NCBI GenBank assembly: GCA_009841615.1
Contig: VXLL01000010.1
Location: 1 to 64,000, forward strand
Source of the DNA: Gammaproteobacteria bacterium
GTDB taxonomy: Bacteria; Pseudomonadota; Gammaproteobacteria; Pseudomonadales; Azotimanducaceae
Length of the DNA: 64,000 nucleotides
Direction of reading: 5' to 3'
Made by a program: the position numbers and the translations under genes. Of the stretch, positions 19,197-30,479 are shown in pieces (the stretch's first letter is position 1; each line of letters begins with the position of its first letter). Under the pieces are notes generated by a model. The model saw nothing but the letters and a program-made list of their open reading frames with translations, was not told where the DNA came from and made no database searches.

Positions 19197-20515
19197 GTTT
19201 TGGTCTCCTGTTCTGAGTCTTCAGTTTGTTCTTCGTCTTCGCTCAATTCTCGGTCGATCTTTTTATGAATAACCCGCAGACTCCTAATGACGTTCTCCCG
19301 CACAAGGATTGTCTCCATAATGAACTGAGCCTCTTCAGTTTCGATTTTAACACACGTAGGTCCGTCCGGTATAGCTTCAAGATACTCCAATATTAGACCA
19401 TTCATAGTTCTAGGTCCAGTGATCGGGAGATCCCAGTTTAAGCTAATGTTAATTTCCCGTAGAAGTGCACGCCCATTAATTACGAACGTCCCGTCGTTTT
19501 GAGGGTAGACATCGGTGACCGTAGCGTTGATGTCAGTCGTGAATTCTCCCACGACTTCTTCAAGGATGTCTTCCAAAGTCACAATTCCCAAGATCGTACC
19601 ATATTCGTCGACTACATGAGCAATCCTTTGTTTATTTTGTTGAAAGTTAATCAACTGAGTCGACAAGGGCGTACCACTCGGTACGAAAGTCGGGGGTTCT
19701 AATTCACTTTCAAACTGTTTTTGGTCGAATTCACCTGCTTCAAAGAGCTCGCCCGAGCGTTTCATATGGAAGACACCGATCACGCCATTGAGTTCTTCGT
19801 GATAAACTGGGAGTCGAGTGTGTTGTGCCTTGACTATGTCCCGCACGATAGCTTCTTTGGTCTTCGCAACATCGACTCCTTTAACCTTCTGATAGGGGAT
19901 CATGATGTTGTTGACTGTAGCTTTCCCTAGATCCAAAATCCCTAGCAACATCGCCTGGCGCTTTAGATCAATGTCACTGTCACGCTGAACGACGGTACGC
20001 AGCTCATCGAGAGACAAGGAGGATGGCTCCGGTTTGACTTTTTTCACGAAGAGGTCGACGATCATTCGAGCTAAATAGTTCACGAACGTTACGACAGGTG
20101 CGAGCAATCGTTGAAGTGGGTCGAGGAGGTAGGTTGACGGAAATGCAATCGTTTCGGGTCGTCTCGCCGCGATCGTTTTAGGAGCGATTTCGGCAAATAT
20201 CAATACGATTAAAGTCAACAAAATGACCGAAATTAAGTCTCCTAGCTTACCGAACAGTGTTGTGCATATGTTTGCCGCAATCACTGCTGCGCAAATATTT
20301 ACTAAGTTGTTCCCAATGAGAATTACACTCAATAACCGGTCAGTCTTGCGCAACATTCGATTCGCTTTGCGCGCCCCGCGGTGCCCCTCTAACACCATGT
20401 GTTTTAGTCGGTAAGGATTCAGCTTCATCATTGCAGTTTCTGAACTAGAGAAATATGCACTACACAGCAACAACAAGAAAACTGCGACGCCTTGTAATAT
20501 GAGAGAGAGATCCAT
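19193..20515 (-). CDS. corB: HlyC/CorC-family membrane protein (CorB/YfjD)
   Basis: The 440-residue protein has an N-terminal DUF21 membrane domain with three to four helices (about 1-190, including AYFSSSETAMMKLNPYR), a CBS pair (about 200-320), and a C-terminal CorC_HlyC domain (about 350-430). Relatives of this CNNM group are linked to Mg2+ or Co2+ transport or resistance. I chose ATG 20513-20515, 20 bases after the ypjD stop; a longer frame to 20635 would run deep into ypjD. Gene order corB-ypjD/ffh matches E. coli. Confidence 0.88.
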   Translation of the reverse strand: MDLSLILQGVAVFLLLLCSAYFSSSETAMMKLNPYRLKHMVLEGHRGARKANRMLRKTDRLLSVILIGNNLVNICAAVIAANICTTLFGKLGDLISVILLTLIVLIFAEIAPKTIAARRPETIAFPSTYLLDPLQRLLAPVVTFVNYLARMIVDLFVKKVKPEPSSLSLDELRTVVQRDSDIDLKRQAMLLGILDLGKATVNNIMIPYQKVKGVDVAKTKEAIVRDIVKAQHTRLPVYHEELNGVIGVFHMKRSGELFEAGEFDQKQFESELEPPTFVPSGTPLSTQLINFQQNKQRIAHVVDEYGTILGIVTLEDILEEVVGEFTTDINATVTDVYPQNDGTFVINGRALLREINISLNWDLPITGPRTMNGLILEYLEAIPDGPTCVKIETEEAQFIMETILVRENVIRSLRVIHKKIDRELSEDEEQTEDSEQETKT

Positions 20516-20535
20516 AGTTCGAGGAGCGTGTCTGT

Positions 20536-21342
20536 TTAAGCGGTCAGCCTGAGTATGAACCGTAAACCAAAGTAGCCAGCCAATAGAAACGCGAATGCAA
20601 TGAGCGACATTCTCGTTGTAAAGTTTCCACGCCAACCAAACTTAACGTGGCCGAACATTACGAATGCATACAGAACCCACGCGATCATCGTAAAAACCAT
20701 ATGCAGATGACCGATCTCCGAAAATAGCTCTCCCCAGAAAAACACTAAACCTGATACATTCGCGCCGGTCAATAATAGCAACCCAACCCAGATTGCATTG
20801 AACAAAATCTTTTCCGCTGACTCAAGTGGGGGAAACATACTTAGAAACGCGTTGGTTGCATTTGCTCTAAGTGCATAGTCGAGATAAATCAACAAGATGG
20901 CATGGCACGCGGCATACGCTAATATGGAGTAGGCGGCGAGGCTTGACAGTGCATGTACTGTTAGGTTGGGTAATGCACTGGTTACGTGAGCACTTTCTTG
21001 GTGAAACAATGCACCGATTGCGATAACTGGTCCAACCACGACATAGGATACAAATAAGATTGGCCTTGCACGGGTGGGTTGGTAAATGTGTTCAACTTGC
21101 ACGATTAAAGCGATACACAAAGTAACCACGAGTAGGATTGGATAGATTGCTAAGTCGATACCTCCTGGAACCCAAAATCGAGAATAGGCGTATCCTGCAT
21201 GAAGAACAGTTGCCAAGATTCCGAGAATATATACAACGCTATACAGACCACGTTTGGATCCGCGGAGTCCAAAGACCAGAACAGCCGCTGTAAGGTAGCT
21301 TATTCCAATCAACAAGGGAACTGCAAGATGTGCGATTGTCAT
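20536..21342 (-). CDS. ypjD: CcsA/YpjD-family inner membrane protein
   Basis: A 268-residue polytopic protein with about eight hydrophobic helices and the features of the cytochrome c assembly (CcmC/CcsA-like) group, such as the helix containing HALSSLAAYSILAYAACHA and HLHMVFTMIAWVLYAFVMFGHV with several histidines. In E. coli the equivalent gene ypjD (corE) sits between corB and ffh, exactly as here. A role in Mg2+/Co2+ export together with CorB has been proposed for that locus; heme handling is suggested only by the fold. It is divergent from ffh. Confidence 0.85.
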   Translation of the reverse strand: MTIAHLAVPLLIGISYLTAAVLVFGLRGSKRGLYSVVYILGILATVLHAGYAYSRFWVPGGIDLAIYPILLVVTLCIALIVQVEHIYQPTRARPILFVSYVVVGPVIAIGALFHQESAHVTSALPNLTVHALSSLAAYSILAYAACHAILLIYLDYALRANATNAFLSMFPPLESAEKILFNAIWVGLLLLTGANVSGLVFFWGELFSEIGHLHMVFTMIAWVLYAFVMFGHVKFGWRGNFTTRMSLIAFAFLLAGYFGLRFILRLTA

Positions 21343-21474
21343 TCTGACACAGTTGAGATGATGAGTAAAAGACGGAGTAGGCGGTAGAGTAGAGACTGCG
21401 GCATAGGTACTTACCTATACTTTGTAACGATTGTCCCACGTTCTGGGCTCAACGATCCACAAAATTTTTTCCAA

Positions 21475-22833
21475 ATGTTTAGTAATCTATCTGACAAGTT
21501 ATCGAATGTCCTGCTCCCCCTTAAGCACCGGAAGCTAACTGAAAGCAACATAAAAGACGCTATGAGGGAAGTCCGCACTGCGTTGTTGGATGCTGATGTT
21601 GCGTTTGGTGTCGTACTTGATTTTGTACAAAACGTGCAACAAAAAGCAGTCGGACAAACGGTGGCACGACAAACTCAGCCGGGTGATGCATTCATCAAGA
21701 TTGTTCATGAGTCCTTAGTCGAGGTCATGGGGGGAGTAAATAATCGACTTGATCTTGATGGCGGGAGTCATCCAAACATAGTTTTGATGGCAGGGCTGCA
21801 GGGCGTAGGAAAAACCACTACGGCAATTAAGCTAGCGAAACTGTTGAAAGAGCGCGAAGAGAAGCAAGTAGCTGTTGTTTCTGCAGACGTGTATCGTCCC
21901 GCTGCACTCGAACAACTTGAGATCTTAGCGGAAGAAGCAGGTGTTCGATGCATAACCTCCAATATCGACCATAGTCCTGAAAAAATTGTAATGAGTGCCT
22001 TAAATGACTCACAGAAGCAGTTCGATGAAGTGTTGGTTGTAGACACAGCAGGTCGTTTAACAGTAGATGAAACGATGATGGAGGAGATCACAAAGCTTCA
22101 CAAAGTGTTACAACCAAGAGAAACACTCTTCGTCGTCGACGCGATGACCGGGCAAGATGCCGCGACTACCGCGAAAGCATTTCAGGAAGCGGTACCGTTG
22201 ACTGGGGTAATACTAGCTAAAGCAGATGCTGATACGCGAGGTGGTGCAGCTCTATCGGTTCGATCAGTTCTTGGCAAACCCATCAAATTCATTGGTACGG
22301 GTGAAGGAATCGATTCGTTAGAGCCTTTTCACCCTGATCGAATCGCGTCGCGGATCCTGGGAATGGGGGATGTGCTCTCGTATCTCGAAGAAGCAGAAAG
22401 GAAACTTGACCATAAGAAAGCTCAACGGCTTGGTAAGAAGATCGTGAGTGGCAGAAAGTTCAATCTAGAAGATATGAGAGATCAGTTGTCGCAGTTCGTC
22501 GAGATGGGAGGACGCTCAAGCATGCTTGATATGTTGCCGAATTTAGGTTCAATGAATGCAAAAGTCAAAGATGTTGACGAAGCAGAGATTCAGAAACAAT
22601 GCGTGATTATCGACTCCATGACACCGCGGGAGAAGTTGTTTCCTAATCTCGTCAACAATTCGCCGTCTCGCAAGAAAAGAATTGCACACGGTAGCGGTAC
22701 TCGGGTCCAAGACGTAAATCTCACCTTACGAAAATTTCAACAGCTAGAAAAGCAAATGAAGCGCATGGGTCGTAAGAAACACCTATCAAGAGCTATGGCG
22801 GCGATGAATCCAGAACAGCTGAAGATGAAATGA
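21475..22833 (+). CDS. ffh: Signal recognition particle protein Ffh
   Basis: The 452-residue GTPase binds signal sequences of nascent membrane proteins together with 4.5S RNA and docks with FtsY. Visible are the N-domain, the G1 loop GLQGVGKTT (about 108-116), DVYRPAA (about 140-146), the G3 DTAGR (about 198-202), TKADAD-like AKADAD (about 251-256) and the Met-rich M-domain from about 330 with MGRKKHLSRAM near the end. The length matches E. coli Ffh (453). It starts with ATG at 21475 and is followed by an outer-membrane protein gene that interrupts the usual ffh-rpsP neighbourhood. Confidence 0.96.
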   Translation: MFSNLSDKLSNVLLPLKHRKLTESNIKDAMREVRTALLDADVAFGVVLDFVQNVQQKAVGQTVARQTQPGDAFIKIVHESLVEVMGGVNNRLDLDGGSHPNIVLMAGLQGVGKTTTAIKLAKLLKEREEKQVAVVSADVYRPAALEQLEILAEEAGVRCITSNIDHSPEKIVMSALNDSQKQFDEVLVVDTAGRLTVDETMMEEITKLHKVLQPRETLFVVDAMTGQDAATTAKAFQEAVPLTGVILAKADADTRGGAALSVRSVLGKPIKFIGTGEGIDSLEPFHPDRIASRILGMGDVLSYLEEAERKLDHKKAQRLGKKIVSGRKFNLEDMRDQLSQFVEMGGRSSMLDMLPNLGSMNAKVKDVDEAEIQKQCVIIDSMTPREKLFPNLVNNSPSRKKRIAHGSGTRVQDVNLTLRKFQQLEKQMKRMGRKKHLSRAMAAMNPEQLKMK

Positions 22834-22894
22834 ATGATCAAGCCTTGTGCTGTTTCAGGCGGTGAATGTTAGACTACCTCGTTGAGAAAAAGGA

Positions 22895-23728
22895 ATGCTG
22901 AAGACATTGAAACTAGTGTGCACGATTGTGCTTTCAATCATTTGTACGAGCAACTTGATCGCTCAAAGCACCGAGTGGTACTTCGGAATTTCTGTCGGCA
23001 CTGACTGGATGAACACGGTGAAACAAGCCGGTTTCAACAATGATAGGATCTGCTATCCGACGTTCGTGTGTCCTCAGGAACCGGGGGGATATCGATGGTA
23101 TTACGATTTGGACACTAGTACAAGGTTCGGAATAGAACTATCAATTGGCAAGTCTATTCGCAAATATCGACTGGAAACAGCTTTCACCCTTGCAAGCAAC
23201 GACATACTCCAGATTTATGACAGAATCACGTTTCTGGATGGATCTCCCTTACTACTAGACGAGAATTCTGAATACAGCAGTGTTGTTGAATCTACTATTG
23301 GAGGTATTTCGTTCACCGGGTTAATGGTGAATTCATATCGCGATTTCCAATTCGCGAGCGATCTTCCTCTAACGAGCTACATTGGACTCGGCGTGGGAGT
23401 TATTCGAGCTGAAATCGAGGAACTACTTTTTCGCTCGGATTATGCTTGTATCAACGATCAGTGCGACGGGCCGCCTGCGTCGAACTTCAACGTGCTTCAG
23501 CAAACAGAATTGATCGATTGGGTCTGGGCTATCAACGTAATGGCTGGTGTCGATTACCAGATTAACTCTCGCATGAGTGTTGGACTGAAGATTGCTCATC
23601 GTGTTCGGGATGATTTGGTTCAAAGTGCAAGTTACCAGCGACACCCATTCCCCGATGCGATGAATACGACAACATTCAGTGAATTGAGTAGTTGGTCCAT
23701 GAGTTTAAATCTCACTTTCAAGAGATGA
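22895..23728 (+). CDS. Predicted small outer-membrane beta-barrel protein
   Basis: A 277-residue protein with a signal peptide (about 1-23, ending LIAQ), then alternating strands typical of an eight-stranded barrel: WYFGISVGTDW, RFGIELSIGKSI, LTSYIGLGVGVI, WAINVMAGVDYQI, MSVGLKIAHRV and a final SMSLNLTFKR. It has four cysteines in likely loops (ICYP, FVCP, YACI, DQCD). I do not recognise a specific family beyond a general OmpA/OmpW-like barrel. Its position between ffh and rpsP is not the usual one, so it is an insertion into a conserved block. Confidence 0.7.
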   Translation: MLKTLKLVCTIVLSIICTSNLIAQSTEWYFGISVGTDWMNTVKQAGFNNDRICYPTFVCPQEPGGYRWYYDLDTSTRFGIELSIGKSIRKYRLETAFTLASNDILQIYDRITFLDGSPLLLDENSEYSSVVESTIGGISFTGLMVNSYRDFQFASDLPLTSYIGLGVGVIRAEIEELLFRSDYACINDQCDGPPASNFNVLQQTELIDWVWAINVMAGVDYQINSRMSVGLKIAHRVRDDLVQSASYQRHPFPDAMNTTTFSELSSWSMSLNLTFKR

Positions 23729-24063
23729 AACTCACAATAATTGTAAATCCTCATTGTATGATCGACGAAGTGGGAATCTTGAAAACGCACATAATTTCGT
23801 AGTTTCATTCTTGGCACTCAAGTACCGACAATATTCCACGTTTGAGCATGTTTGAAATAGGCTAGTACTAGTCTATATGGCTTGCACCTGCGTATCGATG
23901 TTGTATTACTTTAGCACTCAATCTTGCCTCTTTCCCCCCTTTTTACTTGCCTAGTGAAGGTAACTCGAGCACATCGTCATCGAATATACTCTTGTAATTT
24001 CCATAATTGGTACAATTCTTGTAAAATTTCACGCTTTAATTTAGCATTGGTTCTAAACTCAAC
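23729..24063 (+). promoter_or_regulatory. 335-base control region upstream of rpsP with two candidate promoters
   Basis: No gene is visible here. Two sigma-70-like pairs face rpsP: TTGAAA (23852-23857) with TATATG (23874-23879), 16-base spacing, and TTGCAC (23882-23887) with TATTAC (23904-23909), also 16. A palindrome CTAGTACTAG sits at 23862-23871 inside the first. A C/T-rich tract follows at about 23924-23945. The leader from the second promoter would be about 150 bases, long enough for control, but no known ribosomal-protein leader fold was recognised. Confidence 0.4.
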
Positions 24064-24948
24064 ATGGTAGTAATCCGCCTGTCTCGAGCAGGTACAAAGA
24101 AAAAGCCGTTTTACCATCTAGCTGTTGCGGATAAGCGTAGTCCTCGGGACGGAAGATTTATCGAAAGAGTAGGTTTTTACGATCCCGTTGCGCGCGGCAA
24201 ATCCGAACCTTTGCGGGTCGACCTCGAACGTATCGACTACTGGTTGAGTGTCGGCGCACAATTGTCGCCGAAAGTAAAGAGTATCGTTGCTAGAGCTCGC
24301 ATATTGGATGCGCTACCTCCGGAACCTGCAGTGCCCGATTCAATTGAAGAGTCGAGCACCGATGGTCAAGAACAAGAAAAGACGGCAGCGGAAGAGAGCG
24401 AAGATACATCGGTTAAGACTGAAGAATCGGAAGTTGTAACTGCTGATTCTGACGCTATCGTAGAAGAAACGGACCAGGAAGTTGGTACTGAGTCTTCAGT
24501 CGTAGAAGCAACAGAAGAAGCAGCGGCGAAAGATACTGACGAGTCTGATGCGGTGGACGCAACCCGGGACACGCAGTCATCGGAAGAGAGCGCTGGGTTA
24601 GAAGACGTTGCCGAAGACACAGTTTCCCAAGAAGAGTCTGTGGACATAGAAGCCGGTGCCGAGGCCACCGAAGAAGTAGAGGAACCCGTGGTAGAAGCGG
24701 AAGACGAAACCGACACGGAAGACTCCACAGAGGAAGAAGTACCCTCGGTAGAATCAACTGAATCGAGCACAGAGGTTGAAGAAGAGGAACCTGTTGAACA
24801 AGAAGATTCAGTGGAGTCTGAACCAGATGCTCAATCTGCCGAAGTTGAATCCTCAGAGGATGTTGCTGAAGACCCGACCGATGAAACCGATCTCGAAGAT
24901 ACTTCAGACAACGAGGATGGGAAGTCCGACGAAGACAAATCCTCATAA
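24064..24948 (+). CDS. rpsP: Ribosomal protein S16 with a long acidic C-terminal tail
   Basis: Residues 1-85 are an ordinary S16: it opens [18 protein letters not shown] and contains [14 protein letters not shown] and [13 protein letters not shown]. Bacterial S16 normally ends near residue 80-90, but here the frame runs to 294. The extra part of about 205 residues has roughly 85 Asp/Glu and only about six Lys/Arg by hand count, with many Ser, Thr, Val and Ala, and must be disordered and strongly negative. The same frame continues without stop or slip. rimM follows after 37 bases, as usual. Acidic tails on otherwise basic ribosomal proteins are rare; its role is unknown. Confidence 0.95.
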
Positions 24949-24985
24949 ATTGATTATTTAGTACTAATTTCAGTGTTTAGAAGAC

Positions 24986-25516
24986 ATGCAATCGGCAATC
25001 ACACAGTCATTCGTGGTCGTTGGGCGTGTGTCTCGACCATTTGGCGTTAAGGGGTGGAATCACCTCACTAGTTTCACCGACCCACCCGAAAACCTTTTTC
25101 AATATCGACCATGGGCATTGCGAGAAGAACGCAATGATGCCGCAGGTTGGAATGTAATCAACGATTTTGAGATTCAACCGAAGGGAAACAATGTGTTGGT
25201 GTGTTTCGAAAAATCCAATTCTCGCGACGACGCTGACAAATATGTCAACAAACTAATCGGTGTACCGCGAGAAGTATTACCGGCCCTTGACGAAGAAGAA
25301 CACTATTGGGTTGATCTATTGGGCGTGGAAGTGATCAATTTGGAATCGGAGCTCATGGGTGTGGTGCACGATGTAGCATGGAATGGTGCACATCCTGTGT
25401 TGGTCGTAAGAGACCAGTCTGAACAGGATTTGATGATTCCTTTCATATCGGAGTACGTTCACGAAGTAGTCTCTGGATCAAAGATTACGGTGTCTTGGAA
25501 TCGAGATTGGGTGTAA
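24986..25516 (+). CDS. rimM: 16S rRNA processing protein RimM
   Basis: RimM helps mature the 3' domain of 16S rRNA and binds S19 during 30S assembly. The 176-residue chain shows the RimM N-domain with VGRVSRPFGVKGW (about 12-24) and the PRC-barrel domain with HYWVDLLGVEVIN (about 105-117) and PVLVVRDQSEQDLMIPFI (about 136-153). The length matches the family (about 180). It starts with ATG and lies 37 bases after the S16 stop and 11 bases before trmD. Confidence 0.94.
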   Translation: MQSAITQSFVVVGRVSRPFGVKGWNHLTSFTDPPENLFQYRPWALREERNDAAGWNVINDFEIQPKGNNVLVCFEKSNSRDDADKYVNKLIGVPREVLPALDEEEHYWVDLLGVEVINLESELMGVVHDVAWNGAHPVLVVRDQSEQDLMIPFISEYVHEVVSGSKITVSWNRDWV

Positions 25517-25527
25517 AGGACTCAAAA

Positions 25528-26322
25528 ATGTGGCTTGGTGTCGTAACGATATTTCCTGACCTAGTGAAAGCCTCGTTCAAGGAAGGGGTCGTAGGTCGTG
25601 CGATCGAACGCGGCGATATTTCACTTGAGACTATCAATCCGAGAGACTATCCATTGAACTCTTATGGTAGCGTCGACGACAGACCATTCGGCGGCGGTCC
25701 AGGTATGGTTATGGCGGCCGAACCATTAGCAGCGTGCGTGCAAGCGGCAAGAGAAACAGTAAGACCTCATACTCTCAAAACTGCGTTACTCTCGCCTCAA
25801 GGTACCCTGTTTTCGCAGTCACTAGCAACAGAACTTTCGCAACTTGACGCACTATTGCTGGTTGCGGGTCGATATGAGGGTGTTGATGAGAGGTTTATCA
25901 CAAACTACGTAGATTTGGAAATTTCCATCGGTGACTATGTGCTTAGCGGCGGGGAACTTGCTGCATCCGTTGTCGTTGATGTAATTGGTCGATATGTTGA
26001 GGGTACTGTGAACAACCCCGAATCAATTGAGTGCGAGTCTTTTACAGACGATTTACTAGACTGTCCGCAATACACACGACCTCGCGTTTTTGAGGGTTTG
26101 GAAGTACCTGAGGTGTTACTATCGGGAGACCACGGCGCAGTAGAACATTGGCGACACCAGCAACGAATCGAAAAAACATGGACACGACGACCAGACTTGT
26201 TAGTCCAACGAGTCAATAGAGAAACAGAAACTACGGAACTACGGAATTGTATGTTAAACGCCCAGCCGGCGAGCTTGGAGACTGTCGAGGAGGAATCTTG
26301 TGCGAAACAACAAAATAATTGA
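25528..26322 (+). CDS. trmD: tRNA (guanine-37-N1)-methyltransferase
   Basis: TrmD methylates G37 next to the anticodon and so prevents frameshifting. It opens with [12 protein letters not shown], has the diagnostic [10 protein letters not shown] (about 54-63), the knot region [14 protein letters not shown] (about 109-122) and [12 protein letters not shown] (about 132-143). I chose ATG 25528 because AAAGGA sits seven bases upstream and family proteins start at this point; an upstream ATG at 25495 lies within rimM. The 264-residue length fits. It overlaps rplS by 23 bases. Confidence 0.95.
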
Positions 26323-26650
26323 ACAAATTGAAAATGAACAAATGAAGGACTCTGTACCCGAATTTCGGGCTGGAGACACAGTTTCTGTACGCGTCGTTGT
26401 TCGGGAGGGATCGAGAGATCGACTGCAAGCTTTTGAAGGTGCTGTAATTGCGAAACAAAATCGGGGTCTAAATTCCTCATTTACAGTACGCAAGATTTCA
26501 CACGGTGTAGGTGTGGAACGAACGTTCCAGACGCACAGTCCGGCGATTGAGTCTATCAAAGTGTTGAGGCGAGGAGATGTGCGGAAGGCAAAGCTCTATT
26601 ATTTACGAGATCGCTCCGGTCGTTCAGCACGGATCAAAGAAAAAGTCTAA
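26300..26650 (+). CDS. rplS: Ribosomal protein L19
   Basis: A 116-residue L19, at the 30S-50S interface. The middle and end carry [47 protein letters not shown] and [20 protein letters not shown], all typical. The start is GTG at 26300, preceded by GAGGAGG at good distance and matching the start of E. coli L19; it lies inside the end of trmD, so the genes are coupled. It ends the rpsP operon; no clear terminator hairpin follows. Confidence 0.96.
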
Positions 26651-26806
26651 CGATCGACATATTTTTATCCTTAAATCTGATAATTGTTAGTAGAATAAAT
26701 TTTCCTCTTCGGAACCTCGGTGCCGATTACGTTAACACAGTGACTTCATGAGCGCGGCGAAAGTCAATTTAAACACTTTTCGTCCTTTTATGAATGGGGA
26801 AGAAAC

Positions 26807-28576
26807 ATGTCACGCCTAGCTGGTTTCATTGCAATCTTGTTGGCATTGATGGTTTCTGCCATCACCTACCCGCAATCCACATATCCTCTCGCGTCGACAG
26901 ATTCTATCGAACGAGAACTCAAGAACATTGCTCAGTTTGAATCCCATTTCGCGCAAGAGTTGGCATTGATGAGGCTAGTTGAGGGTGCCGTTGACAACGA
27001 ATTGCATGACGTACTTCTACAGTCTGATGAGGTACTCTCGAGGAATTTTCGACACCTTGTTCGTTCGGTTGCAATTCGTCAGTTGGCTACGATCGCTCCC
27101 AAAGAAGCGCTTGAACGACTCAGTGATTGGGATTCGGAAGTACAAACTCAGTTTGTTTCCGTGGTTTTTCAGGAGTGGTCTTTTCTAGATCTAGAAGCCG
27201 CGCTCTCACACATGCAAGACTTGGAGAAGCCATTTCAAAGAGCCGCGCTGCGAGGCATCTTGGATTCTCGCGACGACTTGGATTCCGAAAAACTTAAAGA
27301 AATTGCCTCTCAGTTTGGCCTTGAAACTATAACCAACGCTTGGCTCTCGGAATCAATGAGCCGAAATCCTATACAAGATCCTGAACGAGCATGGGACGAG
27401 CTAGTTCAAACATTCCCTGACGATCTGTTTGAAATCGAAGGCGCGAAACTCGAGTTTGTCGCGCATGTCATCAATGCCAATTGGGAGAAGGATGGAATTA
27501 ACAGTCTCCATAGCTTGTATAAATCCGTTCGCAACCGACCCGGCAGTGTACGTCTCATGCACGCTTTCATAGACCATTTAGCAGACAAAGATCCGGATCT
27601 AGCCTTAGAGGTGGTGATTGATCTAGACCAGAATAATGACGATCTGATGGCTAGTCAACGCATACTGCGATGGGCAGACGACGATCCCTTTGCTGCCTTG
27701 CACGCTTCCCTGAAGACTACGAACAAGAATTTACGCAAGCACTTTTTGCGCACCTTCAACCTCGCATCAGCACCAGATGAAATTTCTCACTTAGTGATCG
27801 AAGAGTTGGTAAGCTACCCCTACGACGTTATCGCGCCCGTTCTTTCTCAGACAATGTGGAACTTGACGTTTCATAATCCAGATCTTGCCACCCAGTATCT
27901 TTACCTTGCCGAGGACTATCGTACCAAATTGGAGATAGCCCAAAAAATTGCTGAGACTTGGTCTCGCGAAGACCCAGATGCAGCCCTTAATTGGATTGGT
28001 ACGGATCAGGAAGTAGAAGAGATGCGTGATCAACTTTGGCGCGTTGTCATGAAGGAGATGACGTTAACCAAACCAGAACAAGCATTCCAAATTGCACTTC
28101 GTCAAACCACGGGCGAATCAGACATTGGACCTGAGGCAGCAGTCATCGAGGAGCTCTCTAGATCCAACTTTGATAGGGCGGTGGCCTTGTTACCACAAGT
28201 ACGCAACAGTGCGACTATGTTGTCCGCAGCTTCTTCAGTTGGGCTTCGTGCAATTGAGAATCGCAAGTCTTCAACCATACACGAAATCGCTCAGCTTTTA
28301 GAAGAATCAAACCAGTCAGACTTCTATGAATCAATTCTTCCATATTGGGTGTGGGATGATCACCAGGGACTGTGCGACAGTTTAGAAGAACTTCCCAATG
28401 CTGAACTGAAAAATTCGGCTGCGAGTTCACTCTTCTTAAAAAATGAGGCGAGCGGTAGGACAATACTAAATGACACACAAAGAAATCTGGTCGAATCCTA
28501 CTTGACGGTCGAGCAACTCGATGAGCTCAGCGAGTTTGCACGAAAAATTGACGATCTTCGGTATTTGTCGCCTTGA
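26807..28576 (+). CDS. Exported helical-repeat protein, paralogue 1
   Basis: A 589-residue protein of unknown function. A signal peptide (about 1-22) is followed by an all-helical chain built of degenerate units of about 30-40 residues with the core W-A/S-x-x-D-P-x-A-A-L, for example LRWADDDPFAALHA and ETWSREDPDAALNWI. It ends with a segment AELKNSAASSLFLKN shared with the next gene, so the two are tandem duplicates. HEAT- or Sel1-like solenoids bind proteins or peptides, but no catalytic residues are seen. It probably resides in the periplasm. It sits between rplS and xerD, outside any known operon. Confidence 0.8.
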   Translation: MSRLAGFIAILLALMVSAITYPQSTYPLASTDSIERELKNIAQFESHFAQELALMRLVEGAVDNELHDVLLQSDEVLSRNFRHLVRSVAIRQLATIAPKEALERLSDWDSEVQTQFVSVVFQEWSFLDLEAALSHMQDLEKPFQRAALRGILDSRDDLDSEKLKEIASQFGLETITNAWLSESMSRNPIQDPERAWDELVQTFPDDLFEIEGAKLEFVAHVINANWEKDGINSLHSLYKSVRNRPGSVRLMHAFIDHLADKDPDLALEVVIDLDQNNDDLMASQRILRWADDDPFAALHASLKTTNKNLRKHFLRTFNLASAPDEISHLVIEELVSYPYDVIAPVLSQTMWNLTFHNPDLATQYLYLAEDYRTKLEIAQKIAETWSREDPDAALNWIGTDQEVEEMRDQLWRVVMKEMTLTKPEQAFQIALRQTTGESDIGPEAAVIEELSRSNFDRAVALLPQVRNSATMLSAASSVGLRAIENRKSSTIHEIAQLLEESNQSDFYESILPYWVWDDHQGLCDSLEELPNAELKNSAASSLFLKNEASGRTILNDTQRNLVESYLTVEQLDELSEFARKIDDLRYLSP

Positions 28577-28715
28577 ATTCTTCAAACGAATTGTTGTCTA
28601 TTCAAGACCAAAACGGTACGCTTTCGCTTTATAGCATGAATTCGCCAAGATGACGCGACTGCATATACAGCAAGGTAGGTAGTCTCACCAACTCCCCCCA
28701 TCGATTGCACACTCC

Positions 28716-30479
28716 ATGACACCAACTAACCGCATAAAGTCTTCTTTGATTGGTGGAACCATAGCGATCGTTGTCGTTGCGTCGGTTGTATGGATACGTT
28801 TTACATTTACGGATCTCAATGACAGCGCGCTATACGCAAACTCATCAGAACAAGTAACAGCGGATGCTAGCGAAACTGAAAACAGAGGTGCTGCTGAGTT
28901 TGATTTTTCAGAAATTAGAAACAAAGAGACTCTGTTTGAAAGAAGGCTAGCGTTATTCGCCTTGATTGACGAAGCGGACGAAAAAACACTGGGTGAACTG
29001 TTTGATCAGTCGATGCTCATGGCATCAAGCTCTTTTCAGCGCGAGCTTTCTAGCACAATCGTCCGTAAATGGGCTTCCGTGAGTCCGCAGCACGTTTTGA
29101 CACATATGGAAGGAATCATATTGCTTCGATATCGTGATTTGTTACCCTTGGTATTTGAAGAATGGGCTCGATCTGATCTGGATGAAGCAGTGTCTTATGC
29201 GAAAAAATTCGGACCGGACACTCGCAAGATAGTGTTCAACTGCATTCGAGAGTTTTTGGAGGATGCTGATGTAAACGAAGTAATGGAGATTGCTCAAAAG
29301 CTGAACCTAGAGTACTATGCAACACACCAAATATTCAGAGAGTTGGCGCGATCGGAGATTGACGATCCAGTGGCGGCATTGGCTCAATTTTTGGATGAGA
29401 ATCGAAACCGTTTCAGGGTGGTAAGGGATCACAAGAGCAACTATCTCCGGGCGATTGCTGATGCAATTGGTGCCCTGGGTGCTGATGCCCTATATGAAGC
29501 TAGTGCGATGCTCACCAACGCAAACGACAGAGTGAGCGTGATACCAAGAATCGTGCACCGAGTTGCACAGCACGATCCGCAAGGTGCTCTAGAGTTTGTG
29601 TTGGCGGACACACAAGCTATCACTGACATGGCATGGGGAGTCGTCTTGACGTGGGCTAAATCTGATCCAAATGCTGCACTAGCAGCCGTGTCTGACATAA
29701 AGAATCACAGACGCAGAGCTCATCTGCTAGGCACTGTCCTAGATCAATGGTCGAAAGATGACCCGTTTTCTCTGTTACAAGAACTGCACAACTTTCCTGA
29801 AAATACTCGCCAACTTGCCGAAGAAAAAGCTCGAGTAGCAGTTGCTGAGCATTCACCCCAAGAAGCTACCGAGTGGTTGCTAGAGATTGAAGATTTAAAC
29901 AAGCGAGCAAATGTTGCTTCTCAAATGGTGAAAAGCTGGGCCAAAAGTGATGCTACCGCAGTATTGGAATGGATTCAATCGGACGGAGACTTGGCTTCTA
30001 TGAGGGATCGGCTTGTGCGCGATGTTGTGCGGGAAGTCACAATGATTGATCCTCAATGGGCAATAGATACCGCTTTGGAGTATTCTGTCCCTGACGATGG
30101 AATCGGTCCCGAAGCAGACTTTATTAGTGTCATTGCTCAATACGATCCAGACGCGGCCCTCAAAATTTTGCCTGTCGCACGTAATGAAACTACAAAACTG
30201 GCAGGATTAATGTCAATTGGTACTCATCTAACAAGGCGCACGGGAGACTCGTACGAGCGAGCGATTGAGTTGGCGGATCAGCTCAGTTCCGAAGAAGATC
30301 GACACCGATATTTAAGCGCACTCATGTACCAATGGGAGTACGAGGACCTCTACAATCAAATCGACCAATTCCCTACTTCGGCCTTAAAGGAACAAGCAGC
30401 AAGCCTGATCTTGAAAAACGACAAGAAAAATCTATCCTCGGATCAGATTGAAAAGCTTGAATCCTACCTAACCGAATAG
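28716..30479 (+). CDS. Membrane-anchored helical-repeat protein, paralogue 2
   Basis: A 587-residue partner of the preceding gene, of nearly equal length. The N-terminus is a single membrane anchor (about 12-28) rather than a cleavable signal, followed by an Asp/Glu/Ser-rich linker and helical units such as VRKWASVSPQHVLTHM, EEWARSDLDEAVSYA, LTWAKSDPNAALAAV and LDQWSKDDPFSLLQEL. Both proteins share a long segment beginning DIGPEAA/GIGPEAD and end with a similar LK-AAS-LKN motif. The two genes are separated by 139 bases. The function is unknown; a scaffold in the envelope is one guess. Confidence 0.8.
   Translation: MTPTNRIKSSLIGGTIAIVVVASVVWIRFTFTDLNDSALYANSSEQVTADASETENRGAAEFDFSEIRNKETLFERRLALFALIDEADEKTLGELFDQSMLMASSSFQRELSSTIVRKWASVSPQHVLTHMEGIILLRYRDLLPLVFEEWARSDLDEAVSYAKKFGPDTRKIVFNCIREFLEDADVNEVMEIAQKLNLEYYATHQIFRELARSEIDDPVAALAQFLDENRNRFRVVRDHKSNYLRAIADAIGALGADALYEASAMLTNANDRVSVIPRIVHRVAQHDPQGALEFVLADTQAITDMAWGVVLTWAKSDPNAALAAVSDIKNHRRRAHLLGTVLDQWSKDDPFSLLQELHNFPENTRQLAEEKARVAVAEHSPQEATEWLLEIEDLNKRANVASQMVKSWAKSDATAVLEWIQSDGDLASMRDRLVRDVVREVTMIDPQWAIDTALEYSVPDDGIGPEADFISVIAQYDPDAALKILPVARNETTKLAGLMSIGTHLTRRTGDSYERAIELADQLSSEEDRHRYLSALMYQWEYEDLYNQIDQFPTSALKEQAASLILKNDKKNLSSDQIEKLESYLTE

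Follow-up and report, generated by a model that had tools for sequence, protein, structure and literature searches.

Our analysis showed that the rpsP gene of the window (the whole stretch of 64,000 nucleotides analysed here) encodes an ordinary ribosomal protein S16 (bS16) domain which runs on, in the same open frame, into a long acidic tail, and that such a tail is a genus-wide trait and not a peculiarity of one genome. The best reading of the sequence comparisons is that selection has probably acted on the negative charge and the disorder of the S16 tail rather than on its sequence. This retention of charge without sequence suggests that the tails have a working role on the ribosome. A second encoded tail was found on S6 of the same genome. 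As the best overall reading, held tentatively and at somewhat less than an even chance, the S16 tail would form a polyanionic brush on the 30S subunit that is under selection but indifferent to sequence.

The sole Pfam-A match of the rpsP product at E 0.001 or better was Ribosomal_S16 (PF00886), which covered residues 8–68 (E 9e-26, 90 bits against a cut-off of 27). The order rpsP–rimM–trmD-like–rplS, taken from the ORF list with RimM and L19 assigned by Pfam, is that of the normal trmD operon (Table 1). From gene order and sequence we take the third of these frames to be trmD, and from its sequence the frame further upstream is presumably ffh. The preliminary description had pointed to rimM as the next gene; it does adjoin rpsP and is recognised as RimM by Pfam, but the arrangement is the ordinary operon order and has no special meaning. 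The window's own genome (G000, 92% complete) gave one S16 match, so rpsP is not a spare paralogue. No RNA families were found at gathering score within 20000–30000, and the promoter and terminator scan gave a signal no better than that of shuffles.

Table 1. Positions of rpsP, its parts and its neighbours in the window, and of the S6 gene elsewhere in the same genome.
Feature	Position	Strand	Basis or remarks
rpsP, complete ORF	24064-24948	+	ATG to TAA; 294 aa encoded
Conserved ribosomal protein S16 domain of rpsP, residues 1-85	24064..24318	+	Pfam PF00886, AlphaFold, dN/dS
Disordered acidic S16 tail (predicted), residues 86-294	24319..24945	+	85 D/E, 6 K/R
rpsP stop codon TAA	24946..24948	+	
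rimM, 30S assembly factor (context)	24986..25516	+	Pfam RimM and PRC_RimM
trmD-like ORF (context)	25495..26322	+	ORF list; TTG start as listed overlaps rimM
rplS (bL19), 116 aa, without acidic tail	26300..26650	+	Pfam Ribosomal_L19; last 40 residues net +8
ffh-like ORF	21475-22833		
ORF with weak outer-membrane-barrel match, under Pfam cut-off	22895-23728		Between ffh-like gene and rpsP
S6 gene, own genome (G000 contig 16)	L135:9170-9853		Upstream of S18 and L9; Pfam Ribosomal_S6; acidic tail ends in Glu-rich repeats

The 209 residues after position 85 contain 85 Asp or Glu and 6 Lys or Arg. The net charge is +9 for residues 1–85, −79 for the tail and −70 for the whole protein. The preliminary description had given a frame of 294 residues with an acidic tail of about 205 residues (roughly 85 acidic and six basic) that dominates the charge of the protein, and was right in these respects. 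It also held that the tail would be disordered, with which our predictions agree. All 17 S16 tails of the genus fell on the disordered side of the charge–hydropathy line. In the AlphaFold model, which was built from a shallow alignment of 7 sequences and had a mean pLDDT of 58.5, the 10-residue blocks of the core were predicted at pLDDT 72–93, except for residues 41–50 at 52. The last predicted helix ended at residue 83 with no secondary structure beyond it, and the tail blocks from residue 91 had pLDDT 42–53. The low pLDDT of the tail is consistent with disorder, short of proof. We also ranked the 367 ORFs of at least 80 aa found in 430 kb of the own genome by the net charge of the most acidic 60-residue stretch in each. 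S6 was the most acidic ORF of this sample (net −30), the S16 tail came second (−29), and an Asp-rich protein came third (−28).

An S16 match was found in 17 of the 18 genomes of the genus, the window's own included, and all 17 encode an acidic tail in a frame that stays open. The exception, G012, is 77% complete. The total length of S16 in the genus varied between 133 and 294 aa, and the net charge after residue 82 between −18 and −83 (n=17). The record VXNY01000031.1 also encodes an S16 of 294 aa. It belongs to the MAG Gammaproteobacteria SB0662_bin_2 (L038), the closest named record to the window's gene, whose S16 is thus of identical length. This MAG seems to be the genome already counted as G011, and bins of this type presumably come from sponges. 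The preliminary description had proposed that S16 lengths be compared in close relatives, and had named a read-supported stop codon near residue 85 as a finding that would speak against the long form. The comparison agreed with the long form throughout the genus, and no in-frame stop lies near residue 85 of rpsP. These open tailed frames indicate that the tail is not an assembly slip. The probability that the tail stems from an assembly error, a frameshift or an overlooked stop is therefore practically nil: VXNY01000031.1 agrees with the 17 genomes, whose conserved frame refutes such an artefact, and the indels among six aligned rpsP genes were whole codons.

Among 38 relatives searched, 37 had S16, and all 37 sequences were compared. 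Seven other genera of the family were represented in this set, and their S16 was 86–93 aa in six and 159 aa in the seventh (G021). A survey of the family found S16 in 144 of 150 genomes, with two matches cut by contig ends. Outside the genus, the sequences compared from this survey were all open frames of at least 170 aa plus at least one gene from every genus except g28; genus g25 was represented by its second copy only. Leaving aside a second G041 copy fused to a different domain (338 aa), only G153 outside the genus had an S16 above 180 aa (206 aa, net −38). S16 of 137–177 aa in total occurred in several other genera of the family, mostly with acidic tails, such as those of G146 (169 aa, net −30) and G120 (149 aa, net −18); the tail of G065 (177 aa) was of mixed charge (net +2). 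In the class survey S16 was found in 263 of 274 genomes, and among the matches listed the 11 open frames of at least 170 aa other than our own (L150–L158, L174 and L175) included no S16 longer than 169 aa. Since tailed S16 is present in several genera of the family, a longer S16 is a recurrent feature of the family that has become extreme and fixed in the window's genus. As a claim of rarity, the remark that no such S16 tail is known in gammaproteobacteria should be softened, because shorter acidic tails recur in other genera of the family.

The second S16 copy of G041 (L139, on contig 17) carries a C-terminal domain of about 255 residues, and a 268-residue piece of this fusion had no Pfam match at E 0.001.

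The sequence of the S16 tail is not conserved across the genus, while its negative charge is kept. Among six closely related rpsP genes, dN/dS was about 0–0.06 in the core and 0.26–0.59 in the tail, and all length changes were of whole codons, including a 64-residue in-frame difference in L008. When the window's gene was compared with four close relatives, the net charge of the tail stayed at −70 to −83 through 33–96 residue changes. A neutral simulation of the same tail divergence (selection against stop codons only, kappa of 3, 1000 runs, matched number of residue differences) lost about 14–42 charges. In all eight pairs the observed tail charge was at or beyond the simulated extreme, a value reached in 0 to 0.2% of the 1000 runs. 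From L005 to L011, for example, 56 changes over 209 positions moved the net charge from −79 to −78, whereas neutral change gave a mean of −55 (sd 4.8). From L005 to L012, 96 differences over 203 positions moved it from −76 to −70, while the simulated tails averaged −34. Because the simulation starts from one extant acidic tail and ignores the tree, this is a strong indication and not a formal test.

These results bear directly on the possibility that the tail is a weakly constrained passenger, in which a free C-terminus, open to any hydrophilic sequence that is not basic, grew longer through the expansion of GAA/GAC-rich repeats and serves no specific function. The fast change of tail sequence and length, with the in-frame difference in L008, the weak internal repeats of the tail, and the recurrence of tails of varied length in other genera are all in keeping with it. 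However, the tail is kept in every genome of the genus that has an S16 match, its dN/dS is below 1, and its charge is retained much more strongly than in the neutral simulation. If S16 is expressed at ribosomal level, the roughly 209 residues added to each ribosome would also be costly. We therefore regard a mere passenger as unlikely.

The S6 of the own genome is 227 aa long, with a net charge of −1 in residues 1–100 and −44 in the remainder. S6 was found in all 18 genomes of the genus, with a length of 152–245 aa and a net charge after residue 100 of −4 to −49. This charge was −17 or lower in 17 of the 18, the exception being G004 with −4, which means that the pairing of S6 and S16 tails is not strict. 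In 17 genomes of the genus the two proteins were correlated in net charge (rho 0.52, p 0.03) and less so in length (rho 0.38, p 0.13), and in 49 other genomes in length (rho 0.41, p 0.003) and less so in net charge (rho 0.21, p 0.15), all four values being uncorrected for kinship. The S6 and S16 tails thus appear to co-occur loosely.

Acidic tails were otherwise rare among the ribosomal proteins compared. There were 29 of these, namely those in the stretches taken from the own genome plus bL25, which was reached through an acidic-run pattern. Only S16, S6 and bL25 had an acidic tail; in the other 26 the last 40 residues had a net charge of −2 to +11. A genome-wide habit of acidic ribosomal protein tails is therefore ruled out for the proteins seen. 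The bL25 tail (CTC/TL5 type) is like that of S16 in being acidic and gene-encoded and in belonging to a ribosomal protein of this genome, but unlike it is short (28 aa, net −18) and common to other genera. It was shared by the five other family genera compared and, in a weaker form, by 10 of 11 members of the order, and is thus not special to the genus. A GAN x6 search of the own genome returned 40 matches, 30 of them as loci, and the loci read were mostly secreted- or membrane-looking proteins and bL25. Three membrane-receptor-looking proteins of this genome (L223, L229 and L233) have D/E runs of 6–8 at or just past the end of a signal-like peptide.

The composition of the S6 and other ribosomal proteins is relevant to the idea of a chaperone-like shield, raised in the preliminary description. 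The polyanion would act in cis during assembly, neutralising the basic core of S16 ahead of its contact with 16S rRNA and so preventing aggregation or wrong RNA binding, and would be idle later. The charges of core and tail, +9 and −79, fit this idea. So does the assembly order, in which bS16 is reported to join the 5′ domain of 16S rRNA after uS4, uS17 and bS20 (PMC5591316). But S6 has the same kind of tail on a core of net −1, and the strongly basic L2 (+38) and L16 (+23) of the own genome have no acidic tail. The shield is weakened as an explanation by these facts, and we give it a low probability. That the about neutral S6 core is tailed as well favours a function at the ribosome surface over the shielding of a basic S16.

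In E. coli and Pseudomonas, S6 is described as receiving C-terminal glutamates from the enzyme RimK (PMC10931766, PMC10092738, PMC7343187). In Pseudomonas fluorescens the S6 glutamates are reported to alter translation, and an rpsF4glu allele to shift it too (PMC7343187). According to the same accounts, the added chain reaches about four Glu at most in cells and as many as 15 when E. coli RimK is overexpressed, and is unlimited in vitro with P. fluorescens RimK (PMC7343187, PMC10092738, PMC10931766). As far as these descriptions go, the tails reported here are like RimK-polyglutamylated bS6 in being acidic C-terminal tails on a 30S protein. They are unlike the RimK system, which is enzymatic and variable, in being encoded, constant and present on both S16 and S6, in a genus with no RimK_N match.

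RimK_N was found in none of the 18 genomes of the genus (77–97% complete), with a positive E. coli control. In the family it was present in 46 of 150 genomes and not found in 104. RimK was scored as present for matches of at least 140 bits and for G092, whose match is split over two contigs; the weaker or partial matches of G034, G038, G041 and G047 were left out of the comparisons. The genus may have given up the polyglutamylation of S6 and come to encode acidic tails on S6 and S16 instead. The lack of RimK_N matches in the genus fits such a replacement, as does the S6 of the genus, which was far more acidic than that of 28 RimK-less genomes of other family genera (net after residue 100, −32 to +2; p 2e-6, kinship uncorrected). 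In the family and order pooled, outside the genus, S6 was also somewhat longer without RimK (p 0.01) and differed in net charge (p 0.04; 15 with against 32 without, kinship uncorrected). Against a replacement, most genomes of the family gave no RimK match. In family members of other genera the S6 net charge was only weakly tied to RimK (10 with against 28 without, p 0.06) and the S16 length was not (17 with against 32 without, p 0.76), both uncorrected for kinship. In addition, G153 has RimK together with its 206-aa S16. The absence of RimK as the cause of the S16 tail is not supported, S16 length being unrelated to RimK status. Genomes without a RimK match are more widespread than those with the long S16 tail, and encoded tails as a replacement for RimK are a possible, unproven and in our view quite unlikely explanation.

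C-terminal extensions of bS16 are known from Actinobacteria. In Cutibacterium acnes and Mycobacterium smegmatis the extension is reported to be partly ordered, to reach uS4 and to be in part unseen in the maps; the C. acnes ribosome also has a short h17 (PMC10085706, PMC6133939). The present tails are like the actinobacterial extension in that bS16 is lengthened C-terminally on the 30S body. They are unlike it in being 48–209 residues long, acidic and predicted to be fully disordered, where the actinobacterial extension is of about 65–74 residues and partly ordered. The own genome gave no 16S match, but the V3/h17 stretch of one genus member had the same length as in E. coli, 196 nt. Six of 10 scanned 16S loci gave a V3 stretch, which measured 157–158 nt from one conserved motif to the next. 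The E. coli-length V3 of the genus member rules out that the tail makes up for a shortened h17, as in C. acnes. With an h17 of this length and a tail not predicted to fold, the C. acnes and M. smegmatis model does not seem to fit.

In the 16S of the genus members L307, L308, L309 and L312, the usually conserved ACTCCTACGGGAGGCAGCAG reads ACTTCTACGGAAGGCAGCAG (four of the six copies read). The ACTCCTACGGGAGGCAGCAG stretch is the site of common 16S survey primers, and mismatches are expected where it is replaced in this way.

Some bS16 chains in solved ribosomes are also longer than the E. coli form, with 188 aa in 7jil, 192 aa in 9i5v, 162 aa in 5v93 and 137 aa in 9t0z. All of these, compared by length alone, are shorter than 294 aa. 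The literature on S16, ribosomal protein tails and RimK, mostly open full text, did not describe an acidic S16 tail of this kind among the matches listed. The S16 tail belongs with the known extensions of ribosomal proteins, and the second encoded tail on S6 of the same genome is new here.

Long disordered acidic tails often bind basic partners. The S16 tail could accordingly be a docking platform that recruits a specific partner, such as an assembly or hibernation factor, an RNase or the membrane; the preliminary description had spoken of an anchor for other factors. A lysine lies within the last six residues of 15 of the 17 genus S16 tails (24928–24945 in the window), although lysine makes up 2.5% of tail residues; this count of tails is inflated by kinship. 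In 11 of the 17, the pattern D/E-K-S/P occurs within the last seven residues. However, no conserved internal motif was seen across the S16 tails of the genus, and each tail has only 0–2 residues of F, W, Y, C, H or M. With the sequence unconserved and the charge conserved, a specific anchor is weakened, although the terminal lysine still speaks for it; we consider docking very unlikely. The tail may also be a reservoir that is cut off, another proposal of the preliminary description.

We return to the polyanionic brush as the preferred reading. S16 and S6 are core 30S proteins present in one copy each per ribosome; S6 lies at the platform and S16 on the 30S body. The S16 of the genus would be a normal 30S protein whose C-terminus is extended by a long disordered polyanion, and the full-length protein would be part of the mature 30S. 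Once S16 has docked in the 5′ domain, its tail would stand out from the body of the 30S as a flexible brush of strongly negative charge, with a second encoded brush on S6 at the platform. Such a brush may act electrostatically at the surface of the ribosome, where it would repel or modulate contacts with mRNA, with S1- or Hfq-like RNA chaperones or with other ribosomes. By analogy, it may be akin to a permanent version of the S6 glutamate tail made by RimK. On this reading the tails would affect translation. It is possible, if doubtful, that the S16 and S6 tails, which in the window's genome add up to about −120 charges per 30S, form a two-brush polyanionic 30S that permanently does by heredity the job of RimK, tuning mRNA choice or the contacts with RNA, S1 and other ribosomes.

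The extra residues, about 200 on S16 and about 90 on S6, would be a heavy and constant cost for each ribosome. If this reading is true, the presence on two 30S proteins of a disordered polymer selected for its charge would provide a natural test of surface charge in translation, and the tails of this genus would be a hereditary counterpart to RimK glutamylation.
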